Shown here piece by piece: positions 55,445-62,983 of a DNA stretch of 64,000 nucleotides. Every line of letters starts with the position of its first letter. Position 1 is the first letter of the stretch. Origin of the DNA: Anaerolinea thermophila (lineage in GTDB: Bacteria; Chloroflexota; Anaerolineae; Anaerolineales; Anaerolineaceae); contig NZ_DYHZ01000001.1 of the NCBI RefSeq assembly GCF_020723905.1, positions 179,501-243,500 on the forward strand, written 5' to 3'. The translations under genes and the position numbers were made by a program. The notes beneath the pieces were generated by a model. It was not told where the DNA came from, did not search any database, and saw only the letters and a list, made by a program, of their open reading frames with translations.

Positions 55445-55897
55445 TTAACTGGCTGGAGGTTCTTCTCCCTGAGAAGGCACAGGCGGTTCAACTGCTGGCT
55501 GAGATGACGATCCCGGAGAACCATTTCTGGATGAAGCCGGTTTGCGTTTCCCCAGCAAATACCCGGCGAGGAAGACTGCCGCGGTGACCAGCGCGAAAAC
55601 CAGCAGACGGGAAGCAAATTGCAGTACACCCAGCCCAAAGGGGAGCGGACTGCCATGGAATCCGCCCTCACGACCGCCGCGGGGGCGCACACCATTCCCA
55701 TCAGGAACGCCATCAAAGCGTCGGAATTCATCGCCATCCCAGCCACGCATGCGGTATCCTTCCTGCAGAGCAGGGCGCCCTGCCCGGAGCATTGAACCTG
55801 CCCAACCGCGATTAACGACCCAGATCACTGCACCTGCGATGACGATGATAGATGCCAGCACCACTAAAATTTTTCCAACCCATTTCAAGACTTTCAT
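55445..55897 (-). CDS. Small membrane protein of unknown function
   Basis: A 150-residue protein with two predicted transmembrane helices (about residues 7-29 and 92-116). Between them is a loop rich in Arg, Gly and Asp. The C-terminal tail of about 35 residues is rich in Pro, Ser and Glu. No known domain is recognised. AGGAGG precedes the ATG. It follows the DUF4405 gene by 22 nt and ends before a strong terminator, so the two form a two-gene operon controlled by the repeat-box promoter at 56476-56520. Confidence 0.75.
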   Translation of the reverse strand: MKVLKWVGKILVVLASIIVIAGAVIWVVNRGWAGSMLRAGRPALQEGYRMRGWDGDEFRRFDGVPDGNGVRPRGGREGGFHGSPLPFGLGVLQFASRLLVFALVTAAVFLAGYLLGKRKPASSRNGSPGSSSQPAVEPPVPSQGEEPPAS

Positions 55898-55919: not shown

Positions 55920-56438
55920 TTATGATTTCCGAACCCGTTCCACTTCCACCATCACCGGTTGCGCCTGCGGGGTTGTGCCACGAAGACGCAGTGAGGCAAT
56001 GGGCGAAACGATATACCGCTTGAACATGGAGACCACCCATTTCCAGTTGAGCGCAAAATGCAAAGCAGTCAGCCATAACACCAGATCTGCCGAGAGCGAA
56101 TGCAGGATACGCCAGTCCTGATTTTCAATGACGGATACTCCCAGGGCAGGGAAAACCACCCGTGAGATCATCAGTCCACTGACCATCACCGTGACCATTG
56201 CCACGAGCAAAAGCGCATCCACCACAAATTTCAGCCGTGAGATATGGAAGAGTTTGCGGAAGAAGGTCTTCAGCACCCCAATCACCCAGTCCCAGTGAAG
56301 CAACATATGCACAATCAAAGTGCCCGCCAGCGCCACAGAAAGCCACTCATGAATCTCCAGTCCGGTGACCTCAGGTTCCAGTGCCATAAGGAAAGCGGCA
56401 AAAATTCCGGCATCAAGGATAAAGTTAGTTTTGTTCAT
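55920..56438 (-). CDS. DUF4405 (cytochrome b561-like) membrane protein
   Basis: A 172-residue protein with four predicted helices. Conserved histidines lie in the membrane segments (IHEWLS, HMLLHWDW, ILHSLSADL, LHFALNWKW), a pattern typical of DUF4405, where they probably bind heme. The W-x-x-x-HxxLHW arrangement fits a b-type cytochrome of the inner membrane. It may transfer electrons for an unknown partner. Its promoter carries the same three 11-bp-spaced boxes found upstream of the two-component genes, which indicates co-regulation with the exporter. Confidence 0.82.
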   Translation of the reverse strand: MNKTNFILDAGIFAAFLMALEPEVTGLEIHEWLSVALAGTLIVHMLLHWDWVIGVLKTFFRKLFHISRLKFVVDALLLVAMVTVMVSGLMISRVVFPALGVSVIENQDWRILHSLSADLVLWLTALHFALNWKWVVSMFKRYIVSPIASLRLRGTTPQAQPVMVEVERVRKS

Positions 56439-56475: not shown

Positions 56476-56520
56476 ATCATACAGGCTGAAGATTTAAATT
56501 TCATTTAGAACCGATTCAGA
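56476..56520 (-). promoter_or_regulatory. Promoter with three response-regulator boxes (DUF4405 operon)
   Basis: Read on the minus strand: TCTGAATC, TCTAAATG and TTTAAATC start every 11 bp (56520, 56509, 56498). After 9 nt comes the -10 TATGAT (56481-56476). The geometry is the same as at 60719-60752 and 60799-60843. There is no independent -35, as expected for an activator-dependent promoter. Confidence 0.65.
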
Positions 56521-56565
56521 TTCAAGCAATTCTGGATAAAAACTCTCTTAATCTCTTTGGCAAGA

Positions 56566-57261
56566 TCACCCCCCGGCAGCGCGGGTTTCCAGAAGTTGAA
56601 TCAGTGGGTCCAGAAACAACCGATTCATCCCCAAACCGCGGCGCTGTGCCATGCGCGTGGGATCGGGTGTAATTTGCTGTCTACCCTCTCCCATCGTTCC
56701 CGGCGGCGCCCCGGCACCACCCAAACCGCCCTCCGGCGGTATGCCGCCCGCTCCTCCCGGAAAACCACCGCTACTTTGAACGCGCTGGGCAACGCGGGTG
56801 GCCATTTGATCCTGTGTCAATGTCCCGTTTTCTCCCATGGGAGCATTGAAAGAGATACCATATTGCTCCATTAAGGCGCGGAAATCGTCCTGTGTGAGAC
56901 TCATCGCCTGAATCTGTTGAATCTGTTCTGCAGTCAGGACTTCCTGAATCTGCTCATAGAGTGCCTGAATCTCTTCCGAAGAGGCAGTATCGCTACTGCT
57001 GAGCGTTTTCACCGCTTTCCATAAAGGGAGCAATGTCTGGGCTTGCTCAGCGGTGACTGCCCACCGGGTTCCTTCCAGTTTCAGAATTCCAACCGCCAGA
57101 CGCGTTTCTAAAGACATCTGGGCTGCGTTTTCGTTCCCTGCGGCAAGCGGTGTTTCCATAGCGCTAGACGGTTCCGATGCCCCCCCTGTCGTCGAACAGG
57201 CACTCAAGGCAATCTGCAAAGCCAGAACCAAACCCAACCAGACAAACCATTTTTTCGACAT
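56566..57261 (-). CDS. Lipoprotein of the MacAB-like operon, unknown function
   Basis: A 231-residue predicted lipoprotein. Residues 1-22 are a signal with lipobox LSAC (lipidated Cys22). The middle (about 50-140) is helical, with Gln/Glu-rich stretches around EQAQTLLPLW and LTAEQIQQIQAM reminiscent of Spy/CpxP-like periplasmic proteins. The C-terminal part is Gly/Pro-rich. GGAGG lies 4 nt before the ATG at 57261, 19 nt after the permease stop. It may be a stress-sensing or chaperone-like component of the exporter; this is inferred from position only. Confidence 0.78.
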   Translation of the reverse strand: MSKKWFVWLGLVLALQIALSACSTTGGASEPSSAMETPLAAGNENAAQMSLETRLAVGILKLEGTRWAVTAEQAQTLLPLWKAVKTLSSSDTASSEEIQALYEQIQEVLTAEQIQQIQAMSLTQDDFRALMEQYGISFNAPMGENGTLTQDQMATRVAQRVQSSGGFPGGAGGIPPEGGLGGAGAPPGTMGEGRQQITPDPTRMAQRRGLGMNRLFLDPLIQLLETRAAGG

Positions 57262-57280
57262 TTTTCCTCCAGAGATACAG

Positions 57281-58516
57281 TTATTCATGGCGCAAGGCTA
57301 CAATGGGATCCAGATCGGCAGCCTGCTTTGCAGGCAGAAAACCAAAGAAAACACCCACCAGCGCCGCAGACAGGAATGAGAATCCAATCGAGTAAGGCAA
57401 AACCACCGTGCGCATCCCGCCCAAGCGTTCGAACAGATAGGCACCGCCGATACCTGCCAGAATTCCCAGCAACCCGCCTACCAGGCTGAGCAACAAGGCT
57501 TCCATGAGAAACTGCACCTGAATATCCGCAGGCGCCGCGCCTACTGCCTGACGTAAGCCGATTTCCCTGGTGCGCTCGGTGACGCTGACCAGCATGATAT
57601 TCATAATGCCAATCCCGCCGACAATCAGCGAGACGCCGGCAACCCACGCCAGCAGGGTGCGGAACGATTCTGTAGTGGATTCCTGCGTGGCGATGATGTC
57701 CGCCTGAGTACGGATGGTAAAGTCCAGAGAGTCCAGCGTGACTCCATGGCGGTTTGCCAGCAAGAGAGTTATCTGTTCAATTACTTTATCCATGTCGGCA
57801 TCCGGGTCCACGGATACAATGATCTGGCGCACGCGATCGCCCATGATCCGGGCAAACTGCGCTGGCATGAACTTTTTGAACACCAGAGTAATGGGTACGT
57901 AAATCTGCTGGTCAAAATCCACCCCGGCAACCAGCCCTTTTTCCGCCATCACCCCAATGACAGTCAGTTTGATGGAATTAACCGATACCGTCTGCCCAAT
58001 GGGATCAGTTTCGCCAAAAAGTTCTCCGGCAACCGTTTTTCCCAACACCACCACCTTGGAGGCACGCTCCAGTTCCGTATCGTTGTAAAATCTGCCCTGT
58101 TCCACCCGCACATCGCGGACGGTTGGGAAGTCCGGCGTGGCACCGACCATCATGACATCTTCCAGCGAGGTGTTTTCATACTTGACCGTCACACTGGTCT
58201 GCTGTTCTACCGTCACCCCAGCCACACCAGAGATCCGTTCTCGAATAGCCGTCATATCCTCATATACCAGTCCGCCGCGCATGGTTTGAGGTCCGCCGGT
58301 AGGACCACCCCGGCTGAAGGCTGAAGAAATAAACACCAGATTGCTCCCCAGACCATTAATGGCTTCAGAGATGGCGGCTTCTGTACCGGCGCTGATGGCA
58401 ACCATGACAATCACCGCTGCCACACCAATGATGACCCCCAGCATGGTGAGGAAAGAGCGCAGTTTGTTTGCCATCAAACTGTCCCAGGCAATCTTGAGCA
58501 CTTCGCCGAATATCAT
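57281..58516 (-). CDS. MacB-like ABC transporter permease (FtsX family)
   Basis: A 411-residue permease. It has one N-terminal helix (about residues 20-43), a 230-residue extracytoplasmic MacB_PCD domain, and three C-terminal helices (about 285-305, 335-360, 373-395). ALRSF-type start (WDSLMANKLRSFLTMLGVIIG) and the ERTREIGLRQAVGA motif of the FtsX domain are clear. The start overlaps the ATPase gene (ATGA). It works as a dimer with the ATPase and the MacA-like adaptor to move a peptide, antibiotic or lipoprotein across or out of the membrane. Confidence 0.92.
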   Translation of the reverse strand: MIFGEVLKIAWDSLMANKLRSFLTMLGVIIGVAAVIVMVAISAGTEAAISEAINGLGSNLVFISSAFSRGGPTGGPQTMRGGLVYEDMTAIRERISGVAGVTVEQQTSVTVKYENTSLEDVMMVGATPDFPTVRDVRVEQGRFYNDTELERASKVVVLGKTVAGELFGETDPIGQTVSVNSIKLTVIGVMAEKGLVAGVDFDQQIYVPITLVFKKFMPAQFARIMGDRVRQIIVSVDPDADMDKVIEQITLLLANRHGVTLDSLDFTIRTQADIIATQESTTESFRTLLAWVAGVSLIVGGIGIMNIMLVSVTERTREIGLRQAVGAAPADIQVQFLMEALLLSLVGGLLGILAGIGGAYLFERLGGMRTVVLPYSIGFSFLSAALVGVFFGFLPAKQAADLDPIVALRHE

Positions 58517-59268
58517 GATGACCTCCCTTCACCGGAAGCAAGGCTTTGAGTTTCCCGATGATGACCATTTTTGCGATCTGAGGCTAATTTCCCGTCGCGA
58601 ATCATCAGCACTCTCCGGGCATGGCGCGCCATATCGGGTTCGTGGGTGACCATGACAATGGTGCGTCCGCGTGAATTCAGGTTGATGAGTAACTGGATGA
58701 TTTCCTCACTGGCATGGCTATCCAGATTTCCTGTGGGTTCATCCGCCAGAATGAGCAGAGGATCATTGATCAGCGCCCGCGCAATGGCAACCCGTTGTTG
58801 CTGACCACCCGATAACTGATTGGGGTAATGATGAGCCCGGTCCGCCAGTCCCACGCTTTCCAAAACGGCAAGGGCTTTTTCTTTCCTTTCGGTATGGCTC
58901 AAACGCTCTTCTCGCCGGTACAGCAAAGGCAGGAGAACATTTTCCAGGGCTGTGAGGCGGGGAAGCAGATTGTAAGACTGAAACACAAACCCCAGTTGCC
59001 GGCTGCGAATTTCCGCCAGTTGCGCGCGTTTATAGCCACTGACATCCTCACCTGCCAGAATGTACTGTCCCCTGGTCGGGCGGTCCAGGCAGGCAAGGAT
59101 ATTGAGCAAGGTACTCTTCCCGGAACCGCTTGGTCCCATGATGGCAACAAACTCCCCGGAATCGATGGTCAGGTCAATCCCATCCAGCGCAACCACCTGG
59201 TTTTCGCCCGAACCGTAAATTTTGACCAGTTGAACAGTCTGGATAATCGGCACGGACTCGCTCATCAT
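58513..59268 (-). CDS. MacB/LolD-like ABC transporter ATP-binding protein
   Basis: A 251-residue ATPase. Walker A is GPSGSGKS (residues 45-52), the Q-loop is in FVFQSYNLLPRL, the signature is LSGGQQQR, Walker B is LILADEPTGNLD and the switch His is in VTHEPD. This is the MacB/LolD/FtsE branch. The start overlaps the adaptor gene by 4 nt and its stop overlaps the permease by 4 nt, so the three are translated together. Confidence 0.95.
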   Translation of the reverse strand: MMSESVPIIQTVQLVKIYGSGENQVVALDGIDLTIDSGEFVAIMGPSGSGKSTLLNILACLDRPTRGQYILAGEDVSGYKRAQLAEIRSRQLGFVFQSYNLLPRLTALENVLLPLLYRREERLSHTERKEKALAVLESVGLADRAHHYPNQLSGGQQQRVAIARALINDPLLILADEPTGNLDSHASEEIIQLLINLNSRGRTIVMVTHEPDMARHARRVLMIRDGKLASDRKNGHHRETQSLASGEGRSS

Positions 59269-60680
59269 TTCGTCTCCACAGTACCGGTGGTTACCACTTC
59301 ACCCACTGCGATTCCCTCAAGGATCTGAGCATAGGTGGCGTCTTTAATCCCAACCTTCACAACCCGCAAGCGGGGTTTGCCGTCTGTCCCAACCACAAAG
59401 ACACCGTAGTTGCCATCTCCCAGATCGCGCAGGGCTTCCACAGGAACCAGCACCGCGTCATCCGCGCGGGCAGCGATGATATCCACAGCAGCGTTTAAAC
59501 CTGCCAGCAGGGGCTGGTTCAAGGTGACCTTGCTCAAATCCAGCGCCACAACCCCTTTCAGCACTTTGTAACCACCTTCGGTGACCAGACTGGGGGAAAC
59601 CTGCTGAACCGTACCCGGGAAGGTTATGTCTGGCAGGGCATCAAAAATCACTTCAGCAGGATATCCCACTGCCACTTTATCCATATCGGTCTCATCCACA
59701 GCAAATTCCACCAGCGGATGGAACAGGTCAATCAGGGTGATGAACGTGCCCGTACCTGCCGGGTCTCCCACTTCACCAGCCACCGAAAGCACCGTACCTG
59801 CAAATGGCGCCCGCAGGATTGCTCCTTCGTAGTTCTTTTTCGCCTGCTCGTAGGCAACCTGTGCATTGAGCACCTTACTTTCTGCCTGTGCCAGGGTCGT
59901 GGGGTCTATGCCACTGTTGGCTTCCAGTGTTGCCAGTGTGACTCTGGCTTTTTCCAGATTACTCTTAGCAATGACGTATTCCGCCTGTGAAGCGGTGATC
60001 TCGTAATCGTAATATCCTGAGCAGTAACGGTAATTGGCATAAGCCTGATCCATGCTTTGTCTGGCTGGTAAAACGCGGGTCAGGTAATCCGCCCCACTGG
60101 ATTTAAGATCTTCATATCGTTCTTTGGCTTTGAGATAACTATCGTAATAAGCCGTCGTGGTTTCCTCGGAACAGCGGCTCTGTCCCGACTGTTTGAGCGA
60201 TGCCTGCGCCGTTTGCAAAGCCTTCTCCGCATCCGAAACTGCCAGACGCGCTTTCGCCAGGTTTTCTTCTCCGCTGGCTTTGAGCGTTTCCAGTTCCTGC
60301 CGGGCAAGCAAAAGGGTCACCTCGGCAGATTTCATTACCGCTTCCAGCGAGGTGCGGTCTGCCAGTTCAGCCAGCACCTGTCCCTCTTCCACCTGCTGTC
60401 CCACAGAGACGTAAACTGCTCCCACAGTCCCACTGACCGGGAAAGACAGTTCGGCAGTTTTTCCAGCGGTGAGGATTCCGGTACCCGAAGCCGAAACCAC
60501 CAGACTTCCCCGGCGTGCCTGCGCTGTCTGTGTCTGCGGGGTAGCGGCGGCGCTGGCGGTTTGCGTACGGGGCACCCAAACAGCAAAATAGCCCCACCCT
60601 GCCAGAACCAGTACAATCACGATAATCAACCCGATGACGAACGGTGGAAGGCGCTTCTTCCCTTGAGACGTGGTTTTCAT
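59265..60680 (-). CDS. MacA-like periplasmic adaptor (HlyD/RND-type membrane fusion protein)
   Basis: A 471-residue membrane fusion protein. A transmembrane anchor lies at about residues 15-37, followed by an Ala/Thr/Gln-rich linker. Next come a biotinyl-lipoyl half (VSGTVGAVYVSVGQQVEEGQVL), a long coiled-coil hairpin (about 110-270) with several Tyr residues, and the second lipoyl half (GAILRAPFAGTV). Beta-barrel and membrane-proximal domains follow. AAGGG supports the ATG at 60680 over one at 60686. It is first in the operon MacA-ATPase-permease-lipoprotein, which diverges from the two-component genes and has its own box-containing promoter. Confidence 0.92.
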   Translation of the reverse strand: MKTTSQGKKRLPPFVIGLIIVIVLVLAGWGYFAVWVPRTQTASAAATPQTQTAQARRGSLVVSASGTGILTAGKTAELSFPVSGTVGAVYVSVGQQVEEGQVLAELADRTSLEAVMKSAEVTLLLARQELETLKASGEENLAKARLAVSDAEKALQTAQASLKQSGQSRCSEETTTAYYDSYLKAKERYEDLKSSGADYLTRVLPARQSMDQAYANYRYCSGYYDYEITASQAEYVIAKSNLEKARVTLATLEANSGIDPTTLAQAESKVLNAQVAYEQAKKNYEGAILRAPFAGTVLSVAGEVGDPAGTGTFITLIDLFHPLVEFAVDETDMDKVAVGYPAEVIFDALPDITFPGTVQQVSPSLVTEGGYKVLKGVVALDLSKVTLNQPLLAGLNAAVDIIAARADDAVLVPVEALRDLGDGNYGVFVVGTDGKPRLRVVKVGIKDATYAQILEGIAVGEVVTTGTVETK

Positions 60681-60718
60681 GGTCATTCCCTTTTCTCAGA
60701 TTGCGAAATTTCGCCCTC

Positions 60719-60752
60719 ATCATAGCGAGAAGAGATTTAGAATGGATTTAGA
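60719..60752 (-). promoter_or_regulatory. Promoter with response-regulator boxes (MacAB-like operon)
   Basis: On the minus strand two identical boxes TCTAAATC start at 60752 and 60741 (11-bp spacing). They are followed by 9 nt and the -10 TATGAT (60724-60719). A third, weak T-rich match lies 11 bp further upstream. Same spacing as at the other two promoters. Confidence 0.7.
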
Positions 60753-60798
60753 AAAAATGAATTTTTGATGTATAAGAAAGGGGAGAAACTTGTTCAGA

Positions 60799-60843
60799 TC
60801 TAAACCGCTTCTAAACCAGATTTAAATTTTCGTGTGGTATCTT
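60799..60843 (+). promoter_or_regulatory. Promoter with response-regulator boxes (two-component operon, autoregulation)
   Basis: TCTAAACC at 60799 and 60810 and TTTAAATT at 60821 (11-bp steps), then 9 nt and TATCTT (60838-60843), 37 nt before the regulator ATG. The boxes have the same orientation relative to transcription as in the two minus-strand promoters. Confidence 0.7.
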
Positions 60844-60880: not shown

Positions 60881-61570
60881 ATGAGCAAGACCATTTTGGT
60901 TGTGGATGACCAGTCCAGCGTACGGCAACTGCTTCAGGAATATCTGACCGAACAGGGATATCGGGTGCTCACCACTACCGATGGTCAGAGTGCTCTGTAT
61001 CTGGCACGCCACGAAAACCCTGATTTAATCCTGCTGGATATCATGATGCCGCGCATGGACGGATATCAATTTCTGCGACAATTTCGACAGGAACGCCAGA
61101 CCCCAGTGATCATTATCACCGCGCGCGAAGAAGAAACGGACGCGGTGCTGGGGCTGGATCTCGGCGCGGATGATTACATCATCAAACCCTTCCGCATGCG
61201 CGAACTGGCGGCACGCATCCGTGCGATTCTTCGCCGGGGAGAGGAACGTCCCGAACGGCAGGAGACCCTGCGAGCAGGGGATATTGTTCTGGATGAAAGC
61301 ACCCACACCGTGACGGTAAAAGATCAGCCTGTGTCCCTCACCCCGATTGAATTTGACCTGCTGGCAACCCTGATGCGCTCTCCGGGTAGAGTGTACACCC
61401 GTGCCGAACTGGTGGAAATCCTTGCCGACAGTGGATTTGCAGGCATTGATACCACGCTCAACGTTCACGTGCGCAACTTACGCCTTAAGATCGAGCCAGA
61501 CCCCAAAAATCCCCGTTACATCGAAACCATCTTTGGGGTGGGTTACCGCTTTCGCAAACAACAGGACTGA
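60881..61570 (+). CDS. OmpR/PhoB-family response regulator
   Basis: A 229-residue two-component regulator. Residues 1-120 are the receiver domain with acidic Asp9/Asp10, the phosphoacceptor Asp53 (LLDIMMP) and the KPF motif. Residues 130-225 are the winged-helix DNA-binding domain (LTPIEFDLLATLMRSPGRV...VHVRNLRLKI...VGYRF). Regulators of this family bind direct repeats with 11-bp steps, exactly what the three nearby promoters show. AAGGAA lies before the ATG. It is cotranscribed with the histidine kinase 6 nt downstream and divergent from the exporter operon. Confidence 0.96.
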   Translation: MSKTILVVDDQSSVRQLLQEYLTEQGYRVLTTTDGQSALYLARHENPDLILLDIMMPRMDGYQFLRQFRQERQTPVIIITAREEETDAVLGLDLGADDYIIKPFRMRELAARIRAILRRGEERPERQETLRAGDIVLDESTHTVTVKDQPVSLTPIEFDLLATLMRSPGRVYTRAELVEILADSGFAGIDTTLNVHVRNLRLKIEPDPKNPRYIETIFGVGYRFRKQQD

Positions 61571-61576
61571 TGCACC

Positions 61577-62983
61577 ATGATGCGTTCGCTTTACTGGAAA
61601 CTCTCTCTGGCAATCCTTCTGGCAGCGTTTACCACTGCCGGGCTGTTCGCTATTTTCATCCGCGTGACCAGCGCTGACCGGTTAATGCAGTTTGTCATTG
61701 ACCAGCAACGCACCAAACTGGTGCAGTCGCTGAGCGAGTACTATCAAACTCATGGCTCATGGAAAGACATTCGCCAGAACTGGGGCAATGTGGAACGCCA
61801 AACCCTGCCCGAAGAATGGCAACACCCCATCGGCGAGGGGGAAAATCGCGACCCGCTGCCCCCTCAAGTCCGGGAACGTCGGGGATTATTCAGCCTGGCA
61901 GATTCCAGCGGGTACGTGCTGGTTTCTGGCGCTCCGGGATATCCAGAAGGCATCCTGCTCGATGAGCAGATGCTGAAGGAAGGCACTCCAATTACCGTGA
62001 ATGGACAGACGGTGGGCATTCTTCTCTCTCCTCAACGGCTGGTCAATTTTCGTCCGGAAGAAGCCCGCTTTCTCAACCGCGTCAATCAGGCACTGGTAAT
62101 CGGCGGGGCTGGCGCGTTGCTGATTGCCCTGATCATCGGCGTGTTCCTGGCGCGCACATTGACCCGTCCCATCAAAGATCTGACCCTTGCCGCCACCCGT
62201 ATGGCGCAGGGGGAACTGGAACAGCAGGTGCAGGTACGTTCCAGGGACGAAATCGGGCAACTGGCACAGGCCTTTAATTTAATGAGCCAGCAAATCGCCC
62301 GCGCCAATCAACTGCGCCGACAGATGACCGCAGACATTGCCCATGACCTGCGCACCCCGTTGACAGTCATTGCCGGGTACATCGAATCCATGCGAGACGG
62401 CGTCCTGCAACCCACTCCCCAGCGGCTGGACCTGATTTATCAGGAAATCGAGCGTTTGCAGAAGATGGTCAACGACCTGCGGATGCTCTCACAAGCCGAT
62501 GCGGGGGAACTCAACCTGCACCCACAGCCGGTTCAACCGGTTGCCCTGCTGGAACGCGCGGCGCAACTGTTTCAACACCATGCCAGCCAGGCAGGCATTA
62601 CCCTCAAGGTGGATGTCCATGAACATACCGATTCCATTCTGGTAGATGAAGACCGCATGATGCAGGTACTGGACAATCTCATCAGCAATGCCTTGCGCTA
62701 CACTCCTTCTGGGGGGGAAGTGACCCTGCGCGCCAGACAGGACGGCAAACGGGTGCTCTTGCAGGTTGCCGATACCGGTTCCGGGATTCCTGCGGAAGAA
62801 CTGCCACACATCTTCGAACGCTTTCATCGCGTAGATCCATCCCGGCACAGCGAAAGCGGGGGAAGTGGACTGGGGCTTGCCATCGTGCGGGCGCTGGTTG
62901 AAGCACAGGGCGGCAGGGTGAGTGCAGAGTCGGAACCGGGGAAAGGCACCACCATTTCTGTCGAATTTCCCGCTCTGGATTGA
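61577..62983 (+). CDS. Sensor histidine kinase (HAMP, HisKA, HATPase)
   Basis: A 468-residue membrane kinase. TM1 lies at about residues 8-30, an extracytoplasmic sensor domain of about 140 residues follows, and TM2 lies at 172-193. A HAMP domain (about 194-246) comes next. The dimerisation domain carries the phosphorylated His256 in IAHDLRTPL, and the ATPase domain has N-box NLISNALRYTP, DTGSGIP and GSGLGLAIV. It pairs with the regulator encoded 6 nt upstream. The signal is unknown; the adjacent MacAB-like exporter suggests envelope stress or a toxic peptide. Confidence 0.95.
   Translation: MMRSLYWKLSLAILLAAFTTAGLFAIFIRVTSADRLMQFVIDQQRTKLVQSLSEYYQTHGSWKDIRQNWGNVERQTLPEEWQHPIGEGENRDPLPPQVRERRGLFSLADSSGYVLVSGAPGYPEGILLDEQMLKEGTPITVNGQTVGILLSPQRLVNFRPEEARFLNRVNQALVIGGAGALLIALIIGVFLARTLTRPIKDLTLAATRMAQGELEQQVQVRSRDEIGQLAQAFNLMSQQIARANQLRRQMTADIAHDLRTPLTVIAGYIESMRDGVLQPTPQRLDLIYQEIERLQKMVNDLRMLSQADAGELNLHPQPVQPVALLERAAQLFQHHASQAGITLKVDVHEHTDSILVDEDRMMQVLDNLISNALRYTPSGGEVTLRARQDGKRVLLQVADTGSGIPAEELPHIFERFHRVDPSRHSESGGSGLGLAIVRALVEAQGGRVSAESEPGKGTTISVEFPALD

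Follow-up and report, generated by a model that had tools for sequence, protein, structure and literature searches.

A tandem 11-bp promoter element that may join a two-component system, a MacB-type exporter and a DUF4405 membrane protein into one regulon in Anaerolinea-type Chloroflexota

Here, we analysed a locus in the 3.29 Mb genome of an Anaerolinea-type member of the Chloroflexota, at which a response regulator of the OmpR/PhoB type, its sensor kinase, a MacB-type exporter and a membrane protein of the DUF4405 family are neighbours and share a promoter element built of short direct repeats. The window, i.e. the whole stretch of DNA that was analysed, comprises 64,000 nt. On the minus strand, the genes follow each other in the order macA-like, ATPase, permease and lipoprotein, then, after a gap of 127 nt, DUF4405 and, after a further 22 nt, a small protein with two transmembrane (TM) segments; the regulator-kinase pair is encoded on the plus strand, divergent from the macA-like gene. 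Since the ends and starts of the four genes from macA-like to lipoprotein overlap, we regard them as one operon. The genes are as follows:

59265 to 60686, minus strand: macA-like gene for a periplasmic adaptor of the MacA/HlyD type (Pfam and NCBIfam profiles)
58513 to 59268, minus strand: ABC ATPase of the MacB/LolD type (Pfam and NCBIfam profiles)
57281 to 58516, minus strand: permease with MacB_PCD and FtsX domains (Pfam and NCBIfam profiles)
56566 to 57288, minus strand: lipoprotein, final gene of the exporter operon, kept in relatives, no Pfam family
55920 to 56438, minus strand: DUF4405 membrane protein (Pfam PF14358)
55445 to 55897, minus strand: small two-TM protein with a polar loop rich in G, D, E, R and H, the usual partner of DUF4405
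60881 to 61570, plus strand: OmpR/PhoB-type response regulator with Response_reg and Trans_reg_C domains (Pfam)
61577 to 62983, plus strand: sensor histidine kinase with HAMP, HisKA and HATPase_c domains (Pfam)

Both domains of the regulator score above their cut-offs (PF00072, 119.4 bits; PF00486, 85.3 bits), Asp53 is the presumed acceptor residue and the recognition-helix region reads TTLNVHVRNLR. At the level of NCBIfam equivalogs, the regulator stays below the cut-offs for MtrA (225.5 vs 300) and BaeR (194.4 vs 380), as does the kinase with its top match BaeS (325.4 vs 500) and as do the separately encoded ATPase and permease with MacB (264.7 and 246.2 bits vs 966). Pfam and NCBIfam searches of the exporter operon genes gave no match to an outer-membrane factor family.

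P2 and P3 of the three promoter elements lie in the divergent gap between the macA-like and the regulator gene, while P1 is located between lipoprotein and DUF4405:

P1, 56520 to 56476, minus strand: half-sites TCTGAAT at 56520, TCTAAAT at 56509 and TTTAAAT at 56498; −10 TATGAT at 56481 to 56476; 37 nt to the start codon of DUF4405
P2, 60752 to 60719, minus strand: half-sites TCTAAAT at 60752 and TCTAAAT at 60741; −10 TATGAT at 60724 to 60719; 32 nt to the start codon of the macA-like gene
P3, 60799 to 60843, plus strand: half-sites TCTAAAC at 60799, TCTAAAC at 60810 and TTTAAAT at 60821; −10 TATCTT at 60838 to 60843; 37 nt to the start codon of the regulator gene

An earlier reading of this DNA, made from the letters alone and referred to here as the original prediction, had described boxes in 11-bp steps, a fixed distance of 9 nt between the last box and the −10 and a uniform orientation. 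All of this can be read directly from the sequence: every step measures 11 bp, the final 8-nt box is followed after 9 nt by TATGAT, TATGAT and TATCTT at P1, P2 and P3, respectively, and all eight boxes point downstream. The proposed form of the box needs to be shortened, as the literal 8-mer T[CT]TAAA[TC]C fits five of the eight boxes and T[CT]TAAA[TC] fits seven; the final C lies outside the half-site, and in the site logo described below C follows the first box in 23 of 43 sites and A follows the second in 30 of 43. A separate −35, said to be missing throughout, is indeed not listed for P2 and P3, while P1 has a weak sigma-70-like ATGAAA-17-TATGAT (9/12) within the box array. The regulator gene does not lie in the middle of the stretch from 56476 to 60843, where it had been placed, and sits just past P3.

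The scan of the whole genome called for in the original prediction returned exactly three exact matches to the box pair plus −10, which are P1, P2 and P3, and no exact match to the reversed pattern. Within the window, TYTAAA-N5-TYTAAA occurs four times compared to none across 100 dinucleotide shuffles. The only genomic site with one mismatch (C10:40732-40765) faces an improbable open reading frame (ORF) and was not taken as a target.

The original prediction had staked itself on the boxes being conserved before orthologous operons. We looked for the regulator at the protein level in 101 genomes and fetched 39 loci around the best matches (52–81% identity) as well as one DUF4405 locus, 38 of these 40 loci being usable (the DUF4405 locus L120, which has no regulator, and L109, with 7 bp of upstream sequence, were left out). 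We scored the element TYTAAAY-N4-TYTAAAY-N10-TAnnnT (17 scored positions) within 300 bp upstream on either strand. At up to two mismatches, it was found in 25 of 38 regulator upstreams (five without, eleven with one and nine with two mismatches). Among 300-bp tiles taken from the same loci as a control, 9 of 1754 reached this level, and none of 190 shuffled upstreams did, so that the expected conservation is borne out. A site pointing towards the regulator is present in 22 of the 38 upstreams, and in L098, L102 and L107 the sole such site faces the divergent gene.

Counted by gene class (coding strand, up to two mismatches), the element precedes 14 of 36 MacA-like genes, with 20 of the 22 genes that lack it being the second or third copy within an operon, and 9 of 24 DUF4405 genes; these two counts are not independent, since 7 of the 14 MacA-like and 3 of the 9 DUF4405 genes with the element lie in loci chosen for a motif match. 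Among operon-internal genes, it precedes none of 13 lipoprotein genes and one of 41 kinase genes, the latter standing first behind a site. A protein-led search for DUF4405 in GTDB species, whose genomes overlap the gene-class set, yielded 80 loci, or 79 after L227 was left out for want of an upstream region. Here, the element was present on the coding strand in 12 of 79 upstreams at up to two and in 24 of 79 at up to three mismatches, with 4 and 8 hits, respectively, in 1419 random windows. L218 was left out of alignment A5, as the chosen ORF was in the wrong frame.

The spacing can also be recovered with a consensus-free test, in which 7-mers that recur at a pitch of 6 to 20 with no more than one difference were counted, provided that TAnnnT lay 17 nt downstream of the beginning of the second copy. 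Pitch 11 was found in 11 of 38 regulator and 13 of 79 DUF4405 upstreams, and every other pitch from 6 to 20 at most once. A logo of 43 sites, which include 20 of the 22 regulator-facing sites because flanking bases were required, gives the consensus TCTAAAY-N4-TCTAAAY; the selecting pattern would also have allowed T in place of the C that follows the first T, yet C is retained in 41 and 36 of the 43 sites in the two boxes. Upstream of this pattern, and outside of it, T.T..A recurs at −11 with about 0.7 bits each and more weakly at −20 and −17 (0.46), from which the complete element would appear to comprise as many as four half-sites. In two DUF4405 upstreams, L225 (Chloroflexaceae; TCTCCAY twice, 212 nt from the DUF4405 gene) and L248 (Anoxybacillus thermarum; TTTTCAC twice), the half-sites differ in sequence while the 11-bp pitch and the distance to the −10 are unchanged. 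The paired change suggests co-evolution of operator and regulator.

Which genes stand behind the element in relatives? In genomes with a close regulator (at least 59% identity), every one of the 16 exact sites stands before a gene for a regulator, a MacA-like adaptor, DUF4405, a secreted protein or a PMT-type protein. Sites with up to two mismatches are followed by PMT_2/YkcB_C glycosyltransferase genes (L107 and L160 by Pfam; look-alikes in L100, L114 and L159 by visible similarity), by GtrA proteins (L115 by Pfam, L143 by similarity), by PAP2 proteins (L111 by Pfam, L112 by similarity) and by secreted proteins with ALGxSxDEL segments (L085 and L117), whose match to DUF2680 is below the cut-off. 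As YkcB_C gave no match in the host genome, its regulon would, by exact sites, consist of the three promoters P1 to P3. The original prediction had also assigned the cytochrome-like pair to the same response, and this gains support from the exact site P1 of the pair itself, from DUF4405 genes behind the element in relatives and from Levilinea saccharolytica (G024), in which the DUF4405 gene with its exact site lies on contig C45, more than 80 kb from either contig end, and the regulator on C1.

A few loci show arrangements of their own. Similar sites precede a gene for a lipoprotein-like protein with an Lcl_C domain (L113:4444-6204) and a gene for a membrane protein whose methyltransferase match stays below the threshold (L138:1411-3425). 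At L145:773-1036, two sites diverge, one facing an ALGxSxDEL secreted protein and the other a receiver-like protein with 31% identity to the regulator over 116 residues. In genome G005, a kinase gene (58% identity to that of the window) and DUF4405 are divergent with one site each (L141:3682-5970), and a separate regulator-kinase locus is present on contig C322 (L100). Three macA-like genes in tandem, compared to one in the window, were seen at L082, L091, L094, L095, L098, L146, L147, L150, L152 and L158; possibly, their products form a hetero-oligomeric adaptor.

The DUF4405 protein matches PF14358 with 55.6 bits (cut-off 26.7). H30, H44, H113 and H127 are invariant in 52 aligned sequences and form two pairs (H30/H44 and H113/H127) with 14 residues between the partners of each; in the structural model (mean predicted local distance difference test score, pLDDT, of 87), they are located on the long helices 27–47 and 107–130. 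Paired histidines on two helices are the usual arrangement of di-haem b bundles. Comparison with solved structures was less telling: Foldseek gave a best E of 1.9 and no match under 0.001, a profile search at E 1 found no solved relative, and the VIA rows mix cytochromes (1kqf_C, Z 8.6, root-mean-square deviation 7.9 over 151; cytochrome b6f 4h0l_A, Z 6.8, root-mean-square deviation 4.1 over 115) with unrelated bundles, one of which is ranked first.

A separate two-TM ORF of 80–200 amino acids directly follows DUF4405 in 58 of 74 loci, a count made without a threshold on loop composition, such that a few of the 58 (e.g. L229 and L253) have a barely polar loop. In 12 of 74 loci (Bacillus relatives, Maribacter and another Bacteroidota genome), DUF4405 instead carries a fused two-TM C-terminal extension, and four have neither form; in the first set of DUF4405 orthologues, such an ORF follows in 22 of 23. 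A profile comparison of 23 separate partners with eight fused tails gave a probability of 93.7 (E 1.8e-7 for one comparison), while the control, the lipoprotein family, reached 9.7; the proteins of this control do not have two TM segments, and the score of the partner could be inflated by its pair of hydrophobic helices. Judged from these comparisons, the small two-TM protein would appear to correspond to the C-terminal third of a six-helix DUF4405 cytochrome, encoded as a gene of its own. The window pair would plausibly be the split form, given that a six-helix model has been published for a member of the family and that a purified one binds haem b (PMC11334425). In Fictibacillus gelatini (L232, 159-4362), regulator, kinase, a secreted-looking protein and a fused DUF4405 are encoded in a row, a counterpart of the association in Bacillota.

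The lipoprotein belongs to a conserved family of 13 sequences with L64, G67, Q82, A83, L86, L89 and W90 among the invariant residues. It has no Pfam match even at E 1 and no NCBIfam match; among solved structures, the best profile hit covers 34 positions of an Hsp70 fragment (E 0.0074), so that no clear PDB relative emerged. Its model has a mean pLDDT of 61 with helices between positions 60 and 142, for which Foldseek returned no match better than E 2.1. A relationship to Spy/CpxP was considered and abandoned, as the evidence was wanting.

Taking the promoter data together, we judge it likely, with a probability of roughly 0.8, that the regulator is an autoregulated activator of the OmpR/PhoB type, which would control the regulator-kinase, exporter and DUF4405 operons through half-sites at 11-bp pitch. 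It has the features of this family, namely a receiver and a winged-helix domain and tandem half-sites spaced by about 11 bp before its own and the target promoters. Following this argumentation, the kinase would phosphorylate the regulator, dimers of which would bind head-to-tail TCTAAAY half-sites 11 bp apart, two of them strong and promoter-proximal and up to two weaker and further upstream. The regulator would thereby occupy the −35 position and bring RNA polymerase to a −10 that stands alone, as in class II activation. It would drive its own operon with the kinase in an autoregulated loop, the export operon from MacA via ATPase and MacB to the lipoprotein, and the two-gene DUF4405 unit, whose products may jointly form a six-helix, probably di-haem b membrane cytochrome. 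The pump might then move a harmful compound or an envelope component, while the cytochrome might pass electrons across the membrane in the same response.

Several observations weigh against this interpretation. The element is missing within 300 bp in 13 of 38 regulator upstreams; three of these loci (L087, L111 and L112) have a same-strand site before another upstream gene, and most others are distant matches (52–62%). In the consensus-free test, the lead of pitch 11 becomes modest once the −10 condition is dropped (23/38 vs 4–19 for regulator and 43/79 vs 16–30 for DUF4405 upstreams), and at this pitch the most frequent −10 offset is 17 for either set, closely trailed by 18 (8/38) and 16 (11/79), respectively. 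The 43 sites of the logo include close relatives. Genome scans with mismatches do not discriminate (4 forward vs 3 reversed matches at up to one mismatch, 21 vs 62 at up to two), and across genomes the pattern with up to one mismatch is present in 65 of 101 at counts similar to those of the reversed pattern. Moreover, the motif extends beyond a single orthologue group, in that more distant regulators whose helix reads TIDVH accompany slightly altered boxes, TCTTAAC in L117 and TCTTCAT in L205, which suggests that related regulators share a general code. Finally, the envelope role is read from gene content.

The boxes might instead be the binding sites of a different OmpR-family regulator in this cell, with the neighbouring regulator being merely one of its targets. 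In favour of this, the regulator query gave 54 matches in the genome with at least ten nearly full-length paralogues, and genome G061, in which the best regulator match has just 47% identity, nevertheless has an exact site before a PMT-type gene. We consider this improbable, though, because the nearest in-genome paralogue is 47% identical and reads TIDAHIKNLR in the recognition-helix region, the genome contains no exact site beyond P1 to P3, and the sites go along with the close orthologue. Among the matches listed, 36 of 101 genomes have a regulator match of at least 59% identity (one of them partial), and exact sites occur in 12 of these 36 genomes, compared to three sites in 3 of the other 65; reversed-pattern matches number four in the 36 and seven in the 65. 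As exact sites track close orthologues and the helix of the nearest paralogue differs, we infer that it is the neighbouring regulator that binds the boxes.

Considerably more remote is the idea that the boxes are no operator half-sites at all, and rather the signature of a sigma factor (a −35 of the extracytoplasmic function type) or DNA-bending phased A-tracts. Their position upstream of a bare −10 and the helical phasing of the AAA runs would suit such elements, while two to four repeats at 11 bp are not expected of a sigma element, and neither the retention of the C after the first T nor the joint change of both half-sites in L225 and L248 fits with it. Equally far-fetched appears the notion that the DUF4405 pair is an unrelated neighbour hitchhiking on the exporter operon. 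DUF4405 lies directly downstream of the lipoprotein gene and the scan lists no terminator in between, such that read-through is possible, yet the pair has an exact site of its own. In relatives, DUF4405 genes that likewise have an exact site are found divergent from the regulator (L102 and L106), next to a kinase gene (L141) or on a contig other than that of the regulator (L149, and L151, where nearby contig ends leave linkage possible), and the enrichment over random windows in the protein-led set is also at odds with hitchhiking.

Among the papers listed by our literature search, we saw no report of this motif or regulon, nor of such a regulatory code for this group. The activator reading would provide one at the level of sequence, TCTAAAY at 11 bp with a fixed distance to the −10, and would assign a haem membrane protein that is widespread and whose role is unclear to a defined response, beside an export pump. 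If true, the two-gene split of a six-helix cytochrome would also explain a small orphan protein without Pfam match. The prediction is testable, as isolate genomes exist for Anaerolinea thermolimosa, Levilinea saccharolytica and Thermanaerothrix daxensis.

How does the proposed regulon compare with known systems? The operators of ArcA and PhoB also consist of 11-bp repeats, while their half-site is different and the ArcA regulon far larger; ArcA repeats are reported to be spaced 11 bp centre to centre with three to five in most sites, and some PhoB and OmpR promoters have multiple repeats (PMC3798270). PmrA (BasR) of enterobacteria is likewise an OmpR-family regulator with direct-repeat hexamers, and the envelope-modifying ArnT is one of its targets. 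Its site in Salmonella is given as a YTTAAK direct repeat (PMC10927774). The half-site here is TCTAAAY, the YTTAAK repeat was not recovered, and the window regulator scores nearer to RegX3, MtrA and BaeR than to BasR. BaeSR and MacAB-TolC of E. coli resemble our locus in that the kinase best matches BaeS and the exporter parts are MacA- and MacB-like, and differ in that all scores stay under the equivalog cut-offs and ATPase and permease are separate genes. With DUF4405 cytochromes and FezC, the window protein shares PF14358 and the conserved histidines, but it appears as a split form of four plus two helices and is linked to an exporter regulon instead of flavinylation or ferrosomes.

Like the system in the window, YclJK (with YclHI) and YrkPQ of Bacillus subtilis are two-component systems with small envelope regulons. 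YclJ and YrkP are OmpR-type regulators, and yclHI, as we assume, adjoins yclJK. The published consensus of YclJ reportedly reads TTCATANTTTNTTCATA. According to the literature, ykcBC (YkcB being of the GT-C type) is in the regulons of both YclJ and YrkP (PMC5836110), the GtrA-type YngA is controlled by YclJ and the YclJK regulon is up under low oxygen (PMC7961091), a MacB-type fold is predicted for YclHI (PMC11466899), and the YrkP regulon comprises about eight genes with mainly lipid or membrane functions, with no signal known for YrkPQ or HexRK (PMC10128005). HexRK of Clostridioides difficile, whose kinase is homologous to YrkQ, is described as needed for daptomycin and bacitracin resistance. 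The consulted text on the YclJ and YrkP regulons does not name DUF4405, and the genome of the window, unlike these regulons, has no YkcB_C match; YkcB_C, GtrA and MacA/MacB-type genes do stand behind the element in its relatives, and it is this regulon content, not orthology of the regulators, on which the likeness is based. Given these parallels, the low-oxygen induction of YclJK and the antibiotic resistance linked to HexRK, our best guess, tentative as it is, would be a response that counters envelope damage or remodels the envelope, with a redox side. Somewhat more speculatively, the regulon may be old and its outline common to Chloroflexota and Bacillota, combining a MacB-type exporter, envelope glycosylation and a transmembrane electron-transfer module, in which DUF4405 and its small partner, split in Chloroflexota and fused in Bacillus relatives, would form a six-helix di-haem cytochrome and power or repair an extracytoplasmic redox step of this response.

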